DNA from: a virus
Reading direction: 5' to 3' (one strand)
DNA length: 31,488 nt
IMG/VR virus record: IMGVR_UViG_3300006802_000322
Location: 1-31,488 of that record
Shown here: one piece after another, positions 2,868 through 13,254 of the stretch
Numbering within the stretch: the first letter of the stretch is position 1
Layout: each line of letters opens with the position of its first letter
The notes under the pieces: generated by a model
What the model was told of the DNA's origin: nothing
Database searches by the model: none
Seen by the model: the letters and a program-made list of their open reading frames with translations, nothing else
Program-made: the position numbers and the translations under genes

Positions 2868-2894
2868 AAAAAAAAAGCAGCTCAAATGAGCTGC
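2868..2894 (-). terminator. Intrinsic terminator of the leftward operon
   Basis: A perfect hairpin, GCAGCTCA / TGAGCTGC with a two-base loop (2877-2894), is followed on the minus strand by nine consecutive T (2876 down to 2868). It sits nine bases beyond the stop of the last leftward gene. For rightward transcripts the same hairpin lacks a good U-run, so it would stop them only weakly. Confidence 0.85.
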
Positions 2895-2902
2895 ACATAT
2901 GT

Positions 2903-3043
2903 TTAGTATTTTCTTGTGTCGTATCCTATGAAAAGCTTTTTTTCATATTCAAGTCTATGGATATGTTTTTCATGTACTACACAGTACCGTCTTTTGTATC
3001 TCAAAAATGGAAGCTGCAAAAAATATAATTTTATCTTTTTCAT
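2903..3043 (-). CDS. Unknown 46-aa basic protein, last gene of leftward operon
   Basis: Starts one base after the stop of the upstream gene (TAA, A, ATG), so it is translationally coupled, and ends just before the terminator. The protein is strongly basic: MKKIKLYFLQLPFLRYKRRY, then CVVHEKHIHRLEYEKKLFIG and YDTRKY. It could be a tiny nucleic-acid-binding or host-binding protein. The family is not recognised; the case for it being real rests on the tight packing between the upstream stop and the terminator. Confidence 0.55.
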   Translation of the reverse strand: MKKIKLYFLQLPFLRYKRRYCVVHEKHIHRLEYEKKLFIGYDTRKY

Positions 3044-3044
3044 T

Positions 3045-3323
3045 TTAGTAAATTGTTAAACTAATTAAATTATTTTCATTTTCCACTTGAAAAATTTTTT
3101 CTAAAATTTCATTGAAATACAAATGACATTCCCCGCCTATGTCTTCAAAATAAATTTCAAAAACATTTTTTTCTTCTTCTTCTATCCCATATTTAAAAAA
3201 AGAATATCCTTTATTTTTTACCTTTATTTTCATTTTATAGAATTTAGATTCTATTTCCTTCAGTAAAATTAAATTATTATTTTTGATTATATAGTCTATG
3301 TTTTCGATAAGAATTCTTTTCAT
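3045..3323 (-). CDS. Unknown 92-aa protein of leftward operon
   Basis: Starts two bases beyond the stop of the 116-aa gene. It has alternating beta and charged segments: MKRILIENIDYIIKNNNLIL, then KMKIKVKNKGYSFFKYGIEE and a Glu-rich patch, then EIYFEDIGGECHLYFNEILE. It is rich in Lys/Glu/Asn/Ile like its neighbours. No motif is recognised. Its conserved placement with the ATPase operon suggests an accessory or host-interaction protein. Confidence 0.55.
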   Translation of the reverse strand: MKRILIENIDYIIKNNNLILLKEIESKFYKMKIKVKNKGYSFFKYGIEEEEKNVFEIYFEDIGGECHLYFNEILEKIFQVENENNLISLTIY

Positions 3324-3324
3324 T

Positions 3325-3675
3325 TTAGCATTTTCCTCTTAATTCTAGTTTTTCTAATAATTCCTTTTCATATTCCCTTTTATACATAACATTTTCCTCA
3401 TATTCATAGTTGTATGGAATTGTTTCAAGAAAACCTATGATTTCAATTTCTATCCCCATAATACTATCCGTCAAATAATTATAATCGTCTTGAATGTCTA
3501 TGAACCATATAATTTCTAAGTTTTCCTCATAATAGAGAGTATAATTACAAATTATATATTCTCTGTGGGTTTTATCATATATTAAAATATATGGATATTC
3601 TAAAAAATCATTTTCTTTGATTTTAGATTTTACTAAAATTCTTTCGTGCTTAATTTCATATTTAATTGTTTTCAT
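3325..3675 (-). CDS. Unknown 116-aa protein of leftward operon
   Basis: The start ATG follows AAAGGAAAAAAACA on the minus strand, giving a clear ribosome site. The sequence is rich in Tyr/Glu/Ile with many short beta-type stretches (YPYILIYDKTHREYIICNYT, LEIIWFIDIQDDY, IMGIEIEIIGFLETIPYNYE), probably a small all-beta or alpha/beta fold. It begins after the two hairpins at 3698-3753, so its expression may be separated from the ATPase genes. The family is not recognised. Confidence 0.55.
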   Translation of the reverse strand: MKTIKYEIKHERILVKSKIKENDFLEYPYILIYDKTHREYIICNYTLYYEENLEIIWFIDIQDDYNYLTDSIMGIEIEIIGFLETIPYNYEYEENVMYKREYEKELLEKLELRGKC

Positions 3676-3697
3676 TGTTTTTTTCCTTTATTTTTAA

Positions 3698-3731
3698 TTT
3701 TAATACTATAAAAAAATTTATAGTATTAAAA
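3698..3731. repeat. 15-bp perfect inverted repeat, A+T only but one base pair
   Basis: The arms TTTTAATACTATAAA (3698-3712) and TTTATAGTATTAAAA (3717-3731) are exact reverse complements around an AAAA loop. The repeat lies in the 91-bp gap between the DUF7192-like gene and the next leftward gene, directly beyond the terminator-like hairpin at 3735-3753. It could be a protein operator, a second RNA structure, or an extension of the terminator. Confidence 0.7.
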
Positions 3732-3753
3732 AATGGGATAAAATTTTTATCCC
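3728..3753 (-). terminator. Terminator or attenuator inside the leftward operon
   Basis: GGGATAAA / TTTATCCC with a three-base loop (3735-3753) is followed on the minus strand by A and six T (3734-3728). It stands 13 bases after the stop of the DUF7192-like gene. It would reduce read-through into the three small downstream genes unless relieved. Confidence 0.65.
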
Positions 3754-3766
3754 TAATCTATGGAAA

Positions 3767-4567
3767 TTATTTATACTTTTCTAAAATTGTTTTCAATTGT
3801 TCGATAAAATATTCTCTTTTCTTGTTTGCATATGGGGAAGAAATAAAAATATCCGTTTCGTTTACTTTGTTTAAGTCACAAATTGCGGTACCGTACCCCG
3901 ATAGAAAATCTTTTCTATAATTTTCCTCTAATATGTGTTCGTACATTTTAAAAAGGTTTCTTCTTAGAAATGAATTGTTAGATAGACAGTATGAAATTCT
4001 ATCCCTATCCATAGACTCAGAAAAATCTTTTAAAATTATCGATATGTTATGAATGACCCTGTTACTATCGGCCGTCCGATCAATTGTAATCAATTTTATA
4101 TTTATGTTTTTAGACTCTAAAATTTCTATCAAAGAAAGAATCATTTGACCATAGTATTTTATGGTTTCTGAGTCTATATTTCCATTGTAGCTACAATTGT
4201 AGTAAATTGTTATATTTTTATTCTCTTTTTCTGTTTCAAGTAAATTTACCATACATTCGGGATTCCCAGTACTATACTCAGATATATCAATTGAAAATCC
4301 CTCATAACTTAAAATCATTTCATTTTCTGTACTACTAAAATTTAAATCTTTTAAAAAATCCCTTATTTCTAAGGGCTTTTCTTTTTGACCGTTTTCTAAT
4401 AGATACATAGACTCTTTAAAATCCATAGTACCGAAAAATTCTTTATTACCAAAAACTTGTGACTGATAGCTTGAATTTTTTTTAGAATAGTCTATTTTTT
4501 GAATTTCCATAAATTCAGAAAAAGTAAATTCATAGATAGAATTTTCACCTTCAATTGTTTTTTTCAT
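3767..4567 (-). CDS. DUF7192-like protein with degenerate VWA/MIDAS-type segment
   Basis: 266 residues. From memory, its layout matches phage/plasmid proteins called DUF7192: an N-terminal 'F-x-G-T-x-D-F-K-E-S-M-Y-L-L-E-N-G' segment (about 44-60), a strand followed by a helix, and a late part with SESMDRDRISYCLSNNSFLR (183-202), then GYGTAI (224-229) and ETDIFI. The stretch NITIYYNCSYNG (118-129) followed by an amphipathic helix and INIKLITID occupies the place of a von Willebrand A domain metal site. The usual D-x-S-x-S reads N124-C-S126-Y-N128, so metal binding is doubtful. It overlaps the AAA+ gene by four bases, the pairing expected for a MoxR/CobS ATPase and its VWA partner. Confidence 0.5.
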   Translation of the reverse strand: MKKTIEGENSIYEFTFSEFMEIQKIDYSKKNSSYQSQVFGNKEFFGTMDFKESMYLLENGQKEKPLEIRDFLKDLNFSSTENEMILSYEGFSIDISEYSTGNPECMVNLLETEKENKNITIYYNCSYNGNIDSETIKYYGQMILSLIEILESKNINIKLITIDRTADSNRVIHNISIILKDFSESMDRDRISYCLSNNSFLRRNLFKMYEHILEENYRKDFLSGYGTAICDLNKVNETDIFISSPYANKKREYFIEQLKTILEKYK

Positions 4568-5691
4568 AGCAAACCTAAACCTTTTAATTGTGCTTTTATC
4601 AATTCTTTTTTTTCGGTCGTGTGTGTCACAAAAACTATGTTTTCATTTCCTATTGATTGCAATTTTTCTAGAGTTATTTGACCGTCAAAGTGAAGTAAGT
4701 TATTCTTTTTTTGCAATTGACTTTTATCGATGGTACATACTGAAAAACCTTTACTTTGATATTCTTGGATTTTTTCAGGGTTTCCGATCGTAAAGTTAAA
4801 TTTATTTACTTTTTTAATTTCAATCGTTTCTACTGTCTCGGATTGACTAGAAAAGGTTTCCTCGATTTCCTCTTTTTTTGGTTCATTTTCGTTTTCATCC
4901 AAGAAATTCTTTATTTCCATTTCACAAGAATTTAAAATTTTATTTCTTGTCTCTGTGGACAATTGATATTTAAAAATAGTCATTTCCAATAAATCTAAAA
5001 TGGGTATATTTTTTTGTGATTCTAAAATTTTATCACCATAAATTGAACTTCTCATCGTGCATTGAATGCCTATTCCATTTTTCTGAACTGCCATTCTAAT
5101 AGCTTGAACAAGTGAAACCCATTTCCCATTTTTACATAGACTATATTCTAAATTATTGTCGAATGTCCATTCGATAGGGATAAATCTATCTTTAAATGAA
5201 AAATCCAATTTTTGACGGCCTGAAAAACTTGAATTTCCCCCCATACCATTAGTATTCCCAGTACCCAAAAAACGAAAATTTGAATGTTTTTCTACAGTCT
5301 TATCAGGAAAAGTCAATACCGATTGACTTAAAGACTGATTTAAAGAAACCGATAGATTTTGAGAAATGTTATCCATTTCATCCAAAAGAAATGTATATCC
5401 ATTTTCATACGCTTCACGAAACGGTGTGGAAACGTACCTTGAACCGTCCACAGACATAAACCCATAAAATTCGCCTTTCGTCGACAAGGGAGTCACTGAC
5501 ATAGTTTTCACTATGTCACCGTTTCCCTTCGCTAAATTCAAAATTTTTTCAGTTTTACCCGTGCCAGCTGCCCCCCATAAATAAAAACTTATTTTTTTGT
5601 CGTATAAGTCTTTTATTTTTTGTTCATTTGTAACTGTAGAAAGATTTTTCTGAAGCTCGAGTTTTTCGATGAATGTTAGATTGTTTTCCAT
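4564..5691 (-). CDS. MoxR/CobS-like AAA+ ATPase
   Basis: 375 residues. Walker A GAAGTGKT is at 40-47, Walker B FLLDEMD at 101-107, sensor 1 GTGNT at 143-147, and the pre-arginine-finger part GGNSSFSGRQKLDFSFKDRF at 151-170 with Arg169 as likely finger. This is the pattern of MoxR/CobS AAA+ ring ATPases that remodel proteins or insert metals, usually with a VWA-domain partner. After a Glu-rich linker (about 262-290) there is an extra C-terminal domain of about 85 residues (VNKFNFTIGNPEKIQEYQSK onwards) that I do not recognise; it has two beta-alpha units and a basic end. Its start codon lies inside the 49-aa upstream gene. The substrate cannot be inferred. Confidence 0.8.
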   Translation of the reverse strand: MENNLTFIEKLELQKNLSTVTNEQKIKDLYDKKISFYLWGAAGTGKTEKILNLAKGNGDIVKTMSVTPLSTKGEFYGFMSVDGSRYVSTPFREAYENGYTFLLDEMDNISQNLSVSLNQSLSQSVLTFPDKTVEKHSNFRFLGTGNTNGMGGNSSFSGRQKLDFSFKDRFIPIEWTFDNNLEYSLCKNGKWVSLVQAIRMAVQKNGIGIQCTMRSSIYGDKILESQKNIPILDLLEMTIFKYQLSTETRNKILNSCEMEIKNFLDENENEPKKEEIEETFSSQSETVETIEIKKVNKFNFTIGNPEKIQEYQSKGFSVCTIDKSQLQKKNNLLHFDGQITLEKLQSIGNENIVFVTHTTEKKELIKAQLKGLGLL

Positions 5692-5825
5692 AGTGTTTTT
5701 TTTCCCTTTATTTTTTTTGTGTAAATTTTAGCATTTTTGTTTTTAGCATAGATTTTTAATAATTCCATTTTATCGGATTCCTTGAAAATCCGATAGAATT
5801 GACCGTCAATTAAGATATAAACCAT
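5676..5825 (-). CDS. 49-aa basic protein, first gene of leftward operon
   Basis: ATG at 5825 (minus strand) follows GAGAGAGGAAAAAAAT, an obvious ribosome site, and directly follows the promoter at 5847-5874. The stop overlaps the ATPase start by 16 bases. The sequence is MVYILIDGQFYRIFKESDKM then a Lys-rich helix; the first part is like the short phage motif 'hydrophobic strand, D-G, strand'. A nine-base-pair inverted repeat (TATCGGATT 5771-5779, AATCCGATA 5787-5795) lies within the coding region and may fold in the mRNA. Function unknown. Confidence 0.55.
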   Translation of the reverse strand: MVYILIDGQFYRIFKESDKMELLKIYAKNKNAKIYTKKIKGKKTLWKTI

Positions 5826-5846
5826 ATTTTTTTCCTCTCTCTATAT

Positions 5847-5874
5847 ACTATAATTCCATGGATTTTTTTGTCAA
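5847..5874 (-). promoter_or_regulatory. Promoter of the leftward operon
   Basis: On the minus strand TTGACA (5874-5869), a 16-bp spacer and TATAGT (5852-5847); TAGTAT two bases further gives an 18-bp alternative. The predicted start of transcription is near 5840, just ahead of the GAGAGAGG ribosome site of the 49-aa gene, so the leader is again very short. Confidence 0.7.
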
Positions 5875-6012
5875 TATAGATATCTTATTTTTTTCCGTTT
5901 TTCTTGGATTTTTTTTTGTGGAGTGGATATAGGTTTTCACCCATTTTTTTTAAAAAATCGAAAAAACCCAAAAAAAACAGTAGTTAGTAAGCAAATTTAC
6001 TATTGTATCACG

Positions 6013-6034
6013 TTTTGACACAATTTTGACACAA
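6013..6034 (+). repeat. Perfect 11-bp tandem repeat TTTTGACACAA x2
   Basis: TTTTGACACAA at 6013-6023 is followed immediately by the same word at 6024-6034. The period is one helical turn, so both copies face the same side of DNA. Each contains TTGACA, but no good -10 lies at 16-18 bp, so promoter function is unconvincing and an operator is more likely. Confidence 0.7.
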
Positions 6035-6329
6035 TACTACACACCTGTTAGCTATACATTCATATTTTTTCATCTATATTCATCTATATTCGTTAAAAAA
6101 TTTAGTAAATTTTGATAATATATTTTCATAGTTTAGAATCTATGTATATCTATAAATATTCTCTATGGACATATACATTCATATATATATATTAAATTAT
6201 ACTATATATATATATAAGCTGGCTGGGATTTTCATTTTTTTTATATATATATATATCAATTACCATAGATTAACATAGATAGATATCTATAAACATTCTC
6301 ATTCATATGTATAGATATTTATTGATATC

Positions 6330-6427
6330 TATAGATATTTATAGATATACTTTTAAACCAAAAAGGGGGCTCTATGTTTTTTTGAGATTTTTTTGCGTTT
6401 TTTAATAAATATAGATATTTATAGATA
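6330..6427 (+). repeat. 18-bp direct repeat pair in the A+T-rich island
   Basis: TATAGATATTTATAGATA occurs exactly at 6330-6347 and 6410-6427, with a shorter copy (TATAGATATTTAT) at 6310-6322. Similar words in reverse orientation lie near 6146-6160 and 6284-6300. Confidence 0.7.
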
Positions 6428-6501
6428 AACGTATAGAATGAGAATATATGAAAATAGATGAAAAACTATGTTTATATATGAATATAGAGAATGTCGTTTT
6501 T

Positions 6502-6550
6502 GTGATACATTTACCCGGGAAATCGTGATACGACCATACCCGGGGAAATC
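6502..6550 (+). repeat. Tandem pair GTGATAC-N-ACCCGGG(G)AAATC
   Basis: The two units are 6502-6524 and 6525-6550. Both begin GTGATAC and end ACCCGGGAAATC or ACCCGGGGAAATC, with a 4- or 6-base variable middle. A reverse copy of the first word, GTATCAC, is at 6005-6011, on the far side of the A+T-rich island. The two SmaI-like CCCGGG palindromes are striking in this A+T-rich genome. A protein-binding site is likely. Confidence 0.7.
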
Positions 6551-10622: not shown

Positions 10623-11128
10623 AAATATACTATGCGGAAAATACGATTTATGAAGTTATTCAGGTAGCGTGTGAATGGGGATTTCAGGATTGTGCTTTTG
10701 TTTATAATGCCTTTACCTATCTTTCGAGAATGGGAAAAAAGACTGTAGGTAAAAAAAACATAATAAATGATTTGAAAAAAGCAAGATTTTACATACAAAA
10801 AGAAATTGAAATAACAGAACTAAGCGAAAATAATCATATTTCTTTTTTTAACAGCGTAAAACTAAAATCAATGGTATCTGAAAAAAATAAAAAACGTCAA
10901 AACGTAAAATTGATTATGGCTTTCTGGGGGTATGGTGCATGGTTTAATTATTGTTCTAAAGACAATGCAAAATTTTATGAAATACATAAAGACATAATAA
11001 TAAATTTTAAAAAATTGAATCAATACGCATACTACGGGAGACTTTTAAGCGAAAATCAAAAAAATTATTTAATATTATTAAATAAAATATTAAATAGGAT
11101 AGATTCTTTACTTGTGCTAATGAAATGA
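10619..11128 (+). CDS. Unknown 169-aa protein
   Basis: Starts ATGA-coupled to the 43-aa gene. The first 40 residues (MKIYYAENTIYEVIQVACEW, then GFQDCAFVYNAFTYLSRMGK) look globular; the rest is Lys/Asn-rich and helical, with aromatic AFWGYGAWFNYC (about 111-122) and a leucine-rich end (LILLNKILNRIDSLLVLMK). No membrane segment, Walker motif or metal site is evident. It immediately precedes the ParB/PAPS-reductase genes with a four-base overlap and so may be co-regulated with them. Confidence 0.55.
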   Translation: MKIYYAENTIYEVIQVACEWGFQDCAFVYNAFTYLSRMGKKTVGKKNIINDLKKARFYIQKEIEITELSENNHISFFNSVKLKSMVSEKNKKRQNVKLIMAFWGYGAWFNYCSKDNAKFYEIHKDIIINFKKLNQYAYYGRLLSENQKNYLILLNKILNRIDSLLVLMK

Positions 11129-11655
11129 AAACAACTACAGTAAAAATAAACATATTAAGACCACACCCCAAAAATCCAAGACATCACAATGATTTTCAAA
11201 TCAATGAACTTGCAAAATCTGTAGATAGATTTGGTCAAATAAGACCAGTAGTAATAGACGAAAACAATGTTATACTTGCTGGACATGGTTTGGTGATGGC
11301 TCTTAAATCACTTGGCTGGGAAGACTGCACTGTTATCAGAAAACATAACCTTTCAGAAGAAGAAAAAGTAAAATTGCTACTTGCAGATAATAAACTGGGA
11401 GACCTGGGAAGAGACGATAATAAATTATTATACGATTTAATAAAAGAAATTGATTCTCCTGAAATTCCTGGGTTTGATACAGAAACTTTATTGAAATTGT
11501 TTGGAGACACTAACCAGGCAATAGAAAATTTTGAAGTTCCTCAGACAGAAAGCACAGGAAAATCTATTTTTGAAGAAGAAGGAAGTAAATCGGAAACAAA
11601 ATCAGCAAACAAAGCAGTTATATGCCCAGGGTGCGGTGAAGTTATTACTCTATGA
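11125..11655 (+). CDS. ParB/Srx-fold protein with C-terminal zinc-knuckle half
   Basis: 176 residues. The opening KINILRPHPKNPRHHNDFQI-x-x-L-A-K-S-V-x-R-F-G-Q-I-R-P-V-V-I and GHGLVMALKSLG (52-63) are the phage ParB N-terminal-like domain (ParB/sulfiredoxin fold, which binds or hydrolyses nucleotides, or cuts DNA in some members). Helices with EEKVKLLLADNKLGDLGRDD follow, then a Ser/Glu linker and a C-terminal ICPGCGEVITL, the C-x2-C ending common in phage ParB-like proteins. It overlaps the PAPS-reductase-like gene by four bases. Confidence 0.75.
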   Translation: MKTTTVKINILRPHPKNPRHHNDFQINELAKSVDRFGQIRPVVIDENNVILAGHGLVMALKSLGWEDCTVIRKHNLSEEEKVKLLLADNKLGDLGRDDNKLLYDLIKEIDSPEIPGFDTETLLKLFGDTNQAIENFEVPQTESTGKSIFEEEGSKSETKSANKAVICPGCGEVITL

Positions 11656-12764
11656 TAAAGTATTCAAAAAACAAAAATGTTTTTGATGAAATGCAAAATA
11701 GAATGGAAAAGATTTTTAATTCTGGAGATGCTTACATAGCTTTTTCTGGAGGGAAAGAATCTTTGATTCTTGTAAATGCTGCGGTTCAGCTTTTAAAAAA
11801 GAAAAAGATCCCAGCAAAAAATGTTCATGTTATTTTTATAGATGAAGAGGCAATTTATCCATGCGTCGAAAGAATAGTAATGCAATGGAGAGAGATTTTT
11901 CTTCGTTTGGGATGTACTTTTGACTGGATATGTCTTCCTATAAAACACTATAACTGTTTTAACCAGCTCACAAATGACGAATCATTTATATGCTGGGATG
12001 AATCAAAGCGAGACGTATGGATAAGGCAAAAACCAGAATTTTCAATAAAATCTCATAAGAAATTTAAAAACGGGTGGTCATACCAGCAATTTATAGACTC
12101 TCTTAATATAAAAGTAGTTATGGGAATAAGAGCACATGAATCCCTACAGAGAGCAATTGGAATTTCTATGAAAAAAGAATCCAATAAACTATATCCAATT
12201 TATGACTGGAGTCTTAATGACGTTTGGCTCTATCTTTACGAAAACAATGTAGAGATCCCAGAAGCATATCTTTATATGTGGAAATCTGGAATCCATCAGA
12301 ACCGTTTAAGAATATCTCAATTTTTTTCTATTGACACTGCTGGATGTCTTGTAAAGATGGTAGAGTATTATCCTAATTTATACGAAAAGATAATCAAACG
12401 AGAGCCAAACTCCTATCTAGCGATGCACTACTGGGACTCTGAGATGTTCCGCCGAAGCACGCACCGTCGAAAACGACTAACAGGAGAAGATGACTCAAAA
12501 TCTGATTGGGAAGTATTATTTTGGGAAAAGTACAAAGAACGGGAAGAGGCAGATACTCTTTCTTTCGAAAGAAAAAAAATAAACACACTATTTTTCCAGC
12601 GTGCTGGAGACATATCCTCACTCAACCACAAAGAAAAACAAAACATATTCAAAAGGCTTTATTCCGTCATGGAATCTGGAGATCCAAAAAAAAGAACAAT
12701 AAGGTCGATCACAGTCGATATCTATAGGTATAGGGAACATGCAGGACGTTTTAGCACCGATTAA
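11652..12764 (+). CDS. PAPS-reductase-like / IbrA-like PP-loop protein
   Basis: 370 residues. The PP-loop SGGKES is at 32-37, followed by HVIFIDEEAIYP (about 69-80), MGIRAHESLQRAIG and YPIYDWSLNDVWLYLY, the hallmarks of the PAPS reductase/ATP-pyrophosphatase family members found in phages and in IbrA (regulator of eib genes in E. coli). The fold activates a substrate by adenylation; true PAPS reduction is unlikely because the catalytic Cys tail of CysH is not seen. The C-terminal 110 residues are basic (RRSTHRRKRLTGEDD) and could contact nucleic acid. It overlaps ParB-like genes on both sides, so the three form one unit. Confidence 0.8.
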   Translation: MIKYSKNKNVFDEMQNRMEKIFNSGDAYIAFSGGKESLILVNAAVQLLKKKKIPAKNVHVIFIDEEAIYPCVERIVMQWREIFLRLGCTFDWICLPIKHYNCFNQLTNDESFICWDESKRDVWIRQKPEFSIKSHKKFKNGWSYQQFIDSLNIKVVMGIRAHESLQRAIGISMKKESNKLYPIYDWSLNDVWLYLYENNVEIPEAYLYMWKSGIHQNRLRISQFFSIDTAGCLVKMVEYYPNLYEKIIKREPNSYLAMHYWDSEMFRRSTHRRKRLTGEDDSKSDWEVLFWEKYKEREEADTLSFERKKINTLFFQRAGDISSLNHKEKQNIFKRLYSVMESGDPKKRTIRSITVDIYRYREHAGRFSTD

Positions 12765-13254
12765 AAAAGTAAGAATAATTTCCAGGGATTTACTCAAGCC
12801 CAATGATTATAACCCGAACAAGGTTCTTGAGGAAAATTTAGAATTGTTAATCCAGTCTATTTTGACTAATGGATGGACATTGCCGATAGTCATTCGACCA
12901 GACTACACAATTATAGATGGATTCCATAGATGGACTGTGGCTGGAAGAGAACCACTTAAAACAATGCTTGACAACAATGTTCCGGTGGTTACAGTAGAAC
13001 ACGATTCAAACGAGAAAAATATTTATGGGACGATAACCCATAACCGAGCAAGAGGCACTCATTTACTGGAACCAATGGAAAAGATAGTAAAAACTTTGTT
13101 GGATTCTGGGAAATCAGTAAAAGAAATTAGTAAACAGTTAGGAATGAAACCAGAAGAAATATTCAGGCTTTCTCAAATGGAGAAAAAAGAGTTTTTAAAA
13201 TTGATGATAAAAGATGAAAAATACGGCAAAGCATTTGTCATGGGGATAATATGA
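12739..13254 (+). CDS. IbrB-like ParB-domain protein
   Basis: 171 residues; the start at 12739 lies 26 bases inside the preceding gene, after AGGGAAC. IIDGFHRWTVAG (58-69) and THNRARGTHLLEPMEKIV (about 99-116) match the IbrB-type ParB-like domain, whose partner is a PAPS-reductase-like IbrA. A helix-turn-helix-like end follows (GKSVKEISKQLGMKPEEIFRL). It is DNA binding or nucleotide dependent, acting with the gene upstream. In E. coli, IbrA/B affect expression of surface proteins; the biochemical reaction is not established, and the phage role is open. Confidence 0.75.
   Translation: MQDVLAPIKKVRIISRDLLKPNDYNPNKVLEENLELLIQSILTNGWTLPIVIRPDYTIIDGFHRWTVAGREPLKTMLDNNVPVVTVEHDSNEKNIYGTITHNRARGTHLLEPMEKIVKTLLDSGKSVKEISKQLGMKPEEIFRLSQMEKKEFLKLMIKDEKYGKAFVMGII

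Follow-up and report, generated by a model that had tools for sequence, protein, structure and literature searches.

A widespread, mislabelled phage gene pair encodes a MoxR-like ATPase and a predicted VWA-fold partner lacking the MIDAS

Introduction

Solved NorQ–NorD complexes have provided a mechanism for the joint action of a MoxR-like AAA+ ATPase and a VWA-domain protein (PMC13036017, PMC9976466). A finger of NorD enters the pore of the ATPase (PMC13036017), and such a finger is predicted for every MoxR-associated VWA partner examined (PMC9976466). Arrangements of this kind described in viruses include clusters in tailed viruses in which the gene for a CobS-like ATPase precedes one for a VWA-fold partner of the CobT type (PMC8651126), and jumbo phages that combine a MoxR ATPase with a metallopeptidase–VWA fusion (PMC7824862). 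Here we analyzed an IMG/VR virus record (IMGVR_UViG_3300006802_000322; linear, 31,488 bases), referred to in its whole length as the window, in which a MoxR-like ATPase gene is followed by a gene for a DUF7192 (PF23822) protein within a short block of leftward genes. We find that this pair is real, widespread and mislabelled, and that in the window phage it comes with an exchanged domain in the ATPase and with four small genes private to this phage.

The pair resembles the described systems to different degrees. It shares its gene order with the viral CobS–CobT clusters, but CobT-type proteins greatly exceed DUF7192 in length and are described as having retained the metal ion-dependent adhesion site (MIDAS) (PMC8651126), whereas DUF7192 forms a distinct, compact family with motifs of its own. 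The jumbo-phage combination of AAA+, VWA and metallopeptidase has a parallel in the DUF7192 branch, where about a quarter of the loci encode an SprT-like peptidase in a gene of its own. Rea1/Midasin likewise has sequence-related AAA+ modules and a MIDAS/VWA domain that docks on the ring, but it is a single giant eukaryotic protein with an intact MIDAS and acts on pre-60S ribosomes. The DUF7192 pair itself is present in hundreds of phage records, including those of Staphylococcus Kayvirus and Listeria A511-type phages, where its members are annotated as 'porphyrin biosynthesis' and 'hypothetical'.

Results

Searches of phage records by tblastn matched 230 with the ATPase and 339 with the DUF7192 protein as query. 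Scanning IMG/VR with a profile made from the ATPase alignment gave 288 ATPase relatives, of which the best 80 were inspected. In 79 of these loci a DUF7192 open reading frame (ORF) adjoins the ATPase in the same orientation (downstream in 78, upstream in 1); at the sole unpaired locus the contig ends at the ATPase. Among 36 cellular loci from GTDB, 33 have DUF7192 next door, one more lies at a contig edge, one (L127) carries a fusion of the two genes and one (L124) has no partner gene. The initial annotation had named two outcomes that would speak against its proposed module, homologues dispersed without partners and an unrelated predicted fold for the DUF7192-like protein, and neither was observed. 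In the window the two genes overlap by four bases (4564-4567), as had been noted, and their products share 13-36% sequence identity with their relatives. The two genes lie next to each other in Staphylococcus phages P108 and 812, Listeria phages A511 and P70, Mycobacterium phage LeBron, Gordonia phage Kudefre and Tunturiibacter phage Tunturi_4, while small genes are inserted between them in Rhizobium phage P106B (two), Lactobacillus phage 3-521 (one) and Lumos (one). The conserved core is the ATPase–DUF7192 pair only, and its members are inherited together. Neither protein, used as a single query sequence, gave a match in IMG/VR, a 12-sequence DUF7192 alignment was too divergent to yield search patterns, and no ATPase relatives were found on plasmids at E ≤ 1e-3.

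Some loci have features of their own. In a Turneriella contig (L127, 7593-8630) an in-frame deletion has joined the ATPase and the C-terminal portion of DUF7192 in one reading frame, which is probably a remnant. Mycoplasma and Malacoplasma genomes (L113, L114, L116-L120; genetic code 4) carry the pair beside housekeeping-like genes (purA/hpt or obg/nadE, by eye), apparently outside prophages, and five of these loci have a further downstream gene in common. In Staphylococcus phage 812 (L012, 3750-4869) the ATPase is annotated as two overlapping ORFs, perhaps through a frameshift or a sequencing error.

The ATPase has a complete AAA+ core, of which the Walker A motif, a sensor and an arginine finger had been recognized at the outset: Walker A GAAGTGKT (residues 40-47), Walker B LLDEMD (102-107), sensor-1 N146, arginine finger R169 and sensor-2 R214. 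G40, K46, D104, E105, N146, R169 and R214 are invariant in an alignment of 68 ATPase homologues. Database labels for the protein are Pfam AAA_5 and phrog_249, the latter named 'porphyrin biosynthesis'. Among single-ring PDB sequences, CobS and NorQ/CbbQ are the nearest to it, and its structural model matches NorQ (Z 19.7) and CbbQ (Z 19.6). The ATPase belongs to the MoxR-like CobS/NorQ/CbbQ group, with the AAA+ module complete. Between the strand at residues 61-65 and Walker B lies the helix-2 insert, a strongly conserved stretch reading GF.xxG.YV.T (G77 to T89).

The ends of the protein are unusual. Only 39 residues precede Walker A in the window ATPase, against 80-161 in 67 aligned relatives, and 162 residues run from the sensor-2 arginine onwards, against 37-60 in most of them. 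The extra C-terminal domain pointed out by the initial annotation is real, and it is modelled as a compact alpha/beta fold (residues about 296-372) with a predicted local distance difference test score (pLDDT) mostly of 70-88 and a weaker stretch near residues 331-340. No relatives of this domain were found in the fetched loci, where related ATPases have an N-terminal region instead. The window ATPase has exchanged the usual N-terminal region for the C-terminal domain, which is a candidate for a role in local target choice.

The partner matches PF23822 with an E-value of 1.5e-34 (120 bits, against a Pfam cut-off of 27). Its family is not named in the papers found by a literature search, and its profile found no meaningful match among PDB sequences. 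A model built from the window and IMG/VR sequences (mean pLDDT 85.3, predicted template modelling score 0.82) aligned best with the NorD VWA domain of the NorQ–NorD complexes (Z 9.3 over 193 residues), followed by the MIDAS domains of Rea1/MDN1 (Z 6.4-7.3), with integrin-type and other generic VWA domains at Z 5.4 or lower. A Foldseek match had an E-value of 2.8e-4, and a search of viral models returned the protein's own family first and then CobT-like/VWFA proteins. The predicted DUF7192 structure is a VWA fold and most resembles the VWA domains serving as partners of AAA+ rings, in line with the original proposal of a MoxR/CobS-type ATPase with a VWA partner. An alternative assignment as an RNase HII-like protein (Pfam E-value 0.048) was rejected, the predicted structure being VWA.

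The degenerate MIDAS reported earlier is present: in place of D-x-S-x-S, the DUF7192 protein reads N124-C-S126-Y-N128. Across 66 DUF7192 sequences the first position (column 124) holds N in 23, S in 10, D in 9 and P in 9. The MIDAS is thus degenerate throughout the family and not in the window copy alone.

The best-conserved 20-residue stretch of DUF7192 (residues 87-106; mean Jensen–Shannon divergence 0.439, against 0.276 overall) carries the motif G...D[VI]...GxPE.M. In the model it falls within a hairpin preceding the first VWA strand, with strands at 83-87 and 106-110 and a helix at the tip (95-99). We compared the family with a profile of 12 fetched CbbO/NorD-type proteins; NorQ/CbbQ were absent from the first five genomes tried, and sequences were taken from the wider family. 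The profile–profile alignment placed DUF7192 GFSIDI...GNPECM on the CbbO/NorD finger GDELDVEAAVRA...GQQPDPRIMM, and LKDFSE on the conserved NorD KDF.E, with a score of 30.0 (reversed profile 16.0; shuffles, mean 12.6). Model and alignment together are suggestive of a correspondence between this conserved stretch and the NorD finger.

The pair lies within six leftward ORFs between 2903 and 5825, and all other window genes with family matches are on the plus strand; number, strand and opposed direction agree with the initial annotation. Primase and SSB genes occupy the left end of the window, followed by the leftward operon and then a rightward block comprising a cupin gene, ThyX, ParB-like and PAPS-reductase genes, terminase, portal and structural genes. 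The operon lies between the primase/SSB genes and thyX, and its own promoter is opposed to the structural genes. A TTGACA/TATAGT site matching 11 of 12 consensus positions is present as claimed (5874-5847); it is the best of the region, and the first ATG is about 21 nucleotides (nt) downstream. The region contains 29 promoter-like sites, against 26.7 +/- 4.9 in shuffles, so the promoter call rests on position. The proposed T9 terminator is convincing.

The claim that the six genes are one self-contained system was not supported. While the pair is widespread, the small ORFs have no relatives in Pfam, PHROGs or the fetched loci, nor do the 116- and 92-residue ORFs among phage records; the four small genes are private extras of the window phage, outside the conserved core. 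In addition, a double hairpin that had been missed (3753-3735 and 3731-3698; jointly -21.8 kcal/mol, z -5.6 against shuffles) separates the DUF7192 gene from the 116-residue ORF, so that the six genes may not form one unit and the last three small genes may be expressed separately from the pair. The first hairpin looks like a terminator, and the two together are a candidate internal terminator or processing/regulatory element.

Discussion

We propose that the pair is a MIDAS-less AAA+/VWA remodelling machine of the NorQD/CobST type that probably acts before virion assembly. NorQ–NorD and CbbQ–CbbO provide the top structural matches for both the AAA+ module and the VWA fold, and they agree with the pair in gene pairing and, by the suggestive alignment, in the position of the putative finger and in the KDF.E motif. 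Unlike NorD/CbbO, DUF7192 lacks the MIDAS as well as the large N-terminal domain with its linker, and its predicted finger is shorter; nitric oxide reductase and Rubisco are not known as substrates of the DUF7192 pair. By analogy with NorQ–NorD, the ATPase would form a hexameric ring on which one DUF7192 protein docks, its finger (about residues 82-112) being pushed through the pore onto the helix-2-insert loops (77-89) and its C-terminus resting on the ring. ATP hydrolysis would then twist the VWA domain together with its bound cargo, probably a host or phage complex that is handled before virion assembly. Since the MIDAS is lost family-wide, the target is probably gripped by another surface and not through a metal ion.

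Action before virion assembly is favoured indirectly by the position of the operon among replication and nucleotide genes, by the neighbours of the relatives, and by Listeria phage cka15. The neighbouring genes annotated with PHROGs and Pfam encode helicases, nucleases, methyltransferases and terminases, not tail proteins, and are mixed, with no single linked pathway. In cka15 the genes CKA15_173/174, just upstream of the pair, peak 5 min after infection; the pair itself (CKA15_175/176) is unnamed in the text of that paper and was not seen in excerpts of its particle-protein table.

Several points weigh against this proposal. The DUF7192–NorD superposition has a high root-mean-square deviation (6.3 Å) and 11% identity, and the profile match to CbbO/NorD is likewise weak, at a probability of 18% and with its score reached by 1 of 150 shuffles. 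The ring, the insertion of the finger and the stoichiometry are drawn by analogy. The timing evidence concerns the neighbouring genes of one other phage, and the cka15 record has a terminator annotated inside the ATPase gene CKA15_175 (L170, 3393-3410). Nor is pairing absolute, because one GTDB locus (L124) has an ATPase without DUF7192, and in Mycobacterium phages LeBron and Lumos a single ATPase is accompanied by two DUF7192 genes, the second some 3-4 kb past the first, as though both adaptors shared the same motor.

Counter-defence or superinfection exclusion through the dismantling of a host complex is an unlikely but serious alternative. The accessory-like position, the private flanking genes and the variable N- and C-terminal parts of the ATPase would fit changing targets, and the second VWA partner gene of some mycobacteriophages could encode an adaptor for another one. 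Against it, neither the window ATPase nor its partner matched a PADLOC model at E ≤ 1, and conservation of the pair in many large phages, and beside housekeeping genes on Mycoplasma chromosomes, suggests a more general task.

We give rather less credence to a chaperone of virion assembly, as reported for the MoxR–VWA pair of Acidianus two-tailed virus and proposed for jumbo phages (cited in PMC7824862). Some relatives do lie near terminase genes, but the window operon sits between primase/SSB and thyX with its promoter against the structural genes, and the mixed neighbours of the relatives have no tail enrichment. The early upstream genes of cka15, and the pair going unseen in the excerpts of its particle table, point the same way, with the caveat that a chaperone need not enter the particle.

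A further possibility, which we hold to be doubtful, is that the pair is the motor of an unfold-and-cleave machine, with DUF7192 as a VWA adaptor gripping without a metal ion and a SprT-like metallopeptidase (the phage's own in some cases, perhaps the host's in others) stripping DNA-bound proteins or dismantling host complexes early, a viral counterpart of Cdc48/p97 with Wss1/Spartan. A SprT-like gene is close to the pair, mostly directly upstream, in about 20 of the 79 viral loci and in one cellular locus. Its Pfam matches are at or just under the curated cut-off (E-values 1.5e-5 to 1e-2); in an alignment of 18 sequences the HExxH motif is intact in most and lost in several, and a four-cysteine zinc ribbon is invariant. 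Because a fused form is reported in jumbo phages (PMC7824862), the AAA+/VWA/metallopeptidase combination recurs in two architectures. No SprT-like gene was detected by profile in the window, where the sole HExxH in a reading frame is that of the cupin gene.

A viral cobaltochelatase helper, in which the pair and a host CobN would insert cobalt and raise the cobalamin supply, is very improbable. Among single-ring sequences of known structure CobS is closest to the ATPase, the ATPase carries the 'porphyrin biosynthesis' label, and viral cobST clusters have been proposed to work through CobST hijacking CobN (PMC8651126). Cobalt insertion is nevertheless unlikely because the partner has no MIDAS; at 266 residues it is also far from the 430-860 or so of viral CobT/VWA proteins. 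Relatives of the pair occur in Mycoplasma genomes and Staphylococcus phages, and neither Mycoplasma nor Staphylococcus is known to make cobalamin by the aerobic route. The window, a 31-kb fragment, showed no cobalamin gene. Finally, that the genes are transposed or decaying passengers with no present function, as AT-richness, opposite orientation and small genes without close relatives might suggest, is scarcely credible, as catalytic residues and finger motif are all intact despite the low identity to relatives, and promoter, ribosome-site spacing and terminator are in order.

Reading the pair as a finger-in-pore AAA+/VWA machine without a MIDAS gives mislabelled genes a testable mechanism, and for the MoxR/VWA field such a pair separates partner–ring coupling from target grip. 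It also cautions against counting ATPase–DUF7192 genes among the auxiliary genes for vitamin B12. Two further entry points are the SprT-like peptidase, which is loosely linked to the pair, and the copies on mycoplasma chromosomes.

Additional features of the window

The features discussed above are collected in Table 1.

Table 1. Positions of the operon features in the window, and loci of relatives named by their identifiers
Feature	Position or locus	Strand	Remarks
Intrinsic terminator	2868..2894	-	GCAGCTCATTTGAGCTGC + T9; 7-bp stem, 4-nt loop; -12.6 kcal/mol, z -4.1
46-residue ORF	2903..3043	-	relatives not found
92-residue ORF	3045..3323	-	relatives not found
116-residue ORF	3325..3675	-	relatives not found
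Two hairpins	3698..3753	-	GGGATAAAAATTTTATCCC then ATTTTTT, then 15-bp A/T-rich palindrome
DUF7192 (PF23822) protein, 266 residues	3767..4567	-	predicted VWA-fold partner without MIDAS
Degenerate MIDAS N-C-S-Y-N, residues 124-128	4184..4198	-	sequence, family alignment
Predicted pore finger of DUF7192, residues 82-112	4232..4324	-	analogy with NorD finger (PMC13036017)
C-terminal alpha/beta domain of ATPase, residues about 296-375	4567..4806	-	predicted model; compact
ATPase, MoxR-like AAA+ (CobS/NorQ type), 375 residues	4564..5691	-	intact motifs; Pfam AAA_5, phrog_249
49-residue ORF	5676..5825	-	overlaps ATPase start by 16 bases; relatives not found
Sigma-70-type promoter-like site	5847..5874	-	TTGACA-16 nt-TATAGT; 11/12 match
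Two DUF7192 genes, LeBron	L005 3758-4630, 7592-8434
Two DUF7192 genes, Lumos	L006 3938-4765, 7600-8460
SprT-like gene near the pair	L033, L036, L042, L046, L047, L052, L054, L059, L061, L067, L069, L072, L079, L081-L084, L086, L088, L111

The window DNA has no close relative at the nucleotide level among 50,697 phage records. Just past the operon terminator, at 2740-2825, are three direct repeats of about 27 nt with a spacing of 29-30 nt. Between the two divergent gene blocks, a very AT-rich intergenic stretch (5945-6510) contains many ATAGATATCTATA-like repeats together with inverted repeats and is possibly an origin or regulatory region. Further to the right, at 11125-13254, consecutive ParB-like (phrog_620), PAPS-reductase-like (phrog_2302) and second ParB-like (phrog_2159) genes form a row that resembles IbrA/IbrB-type or DNA-modification cassettes.

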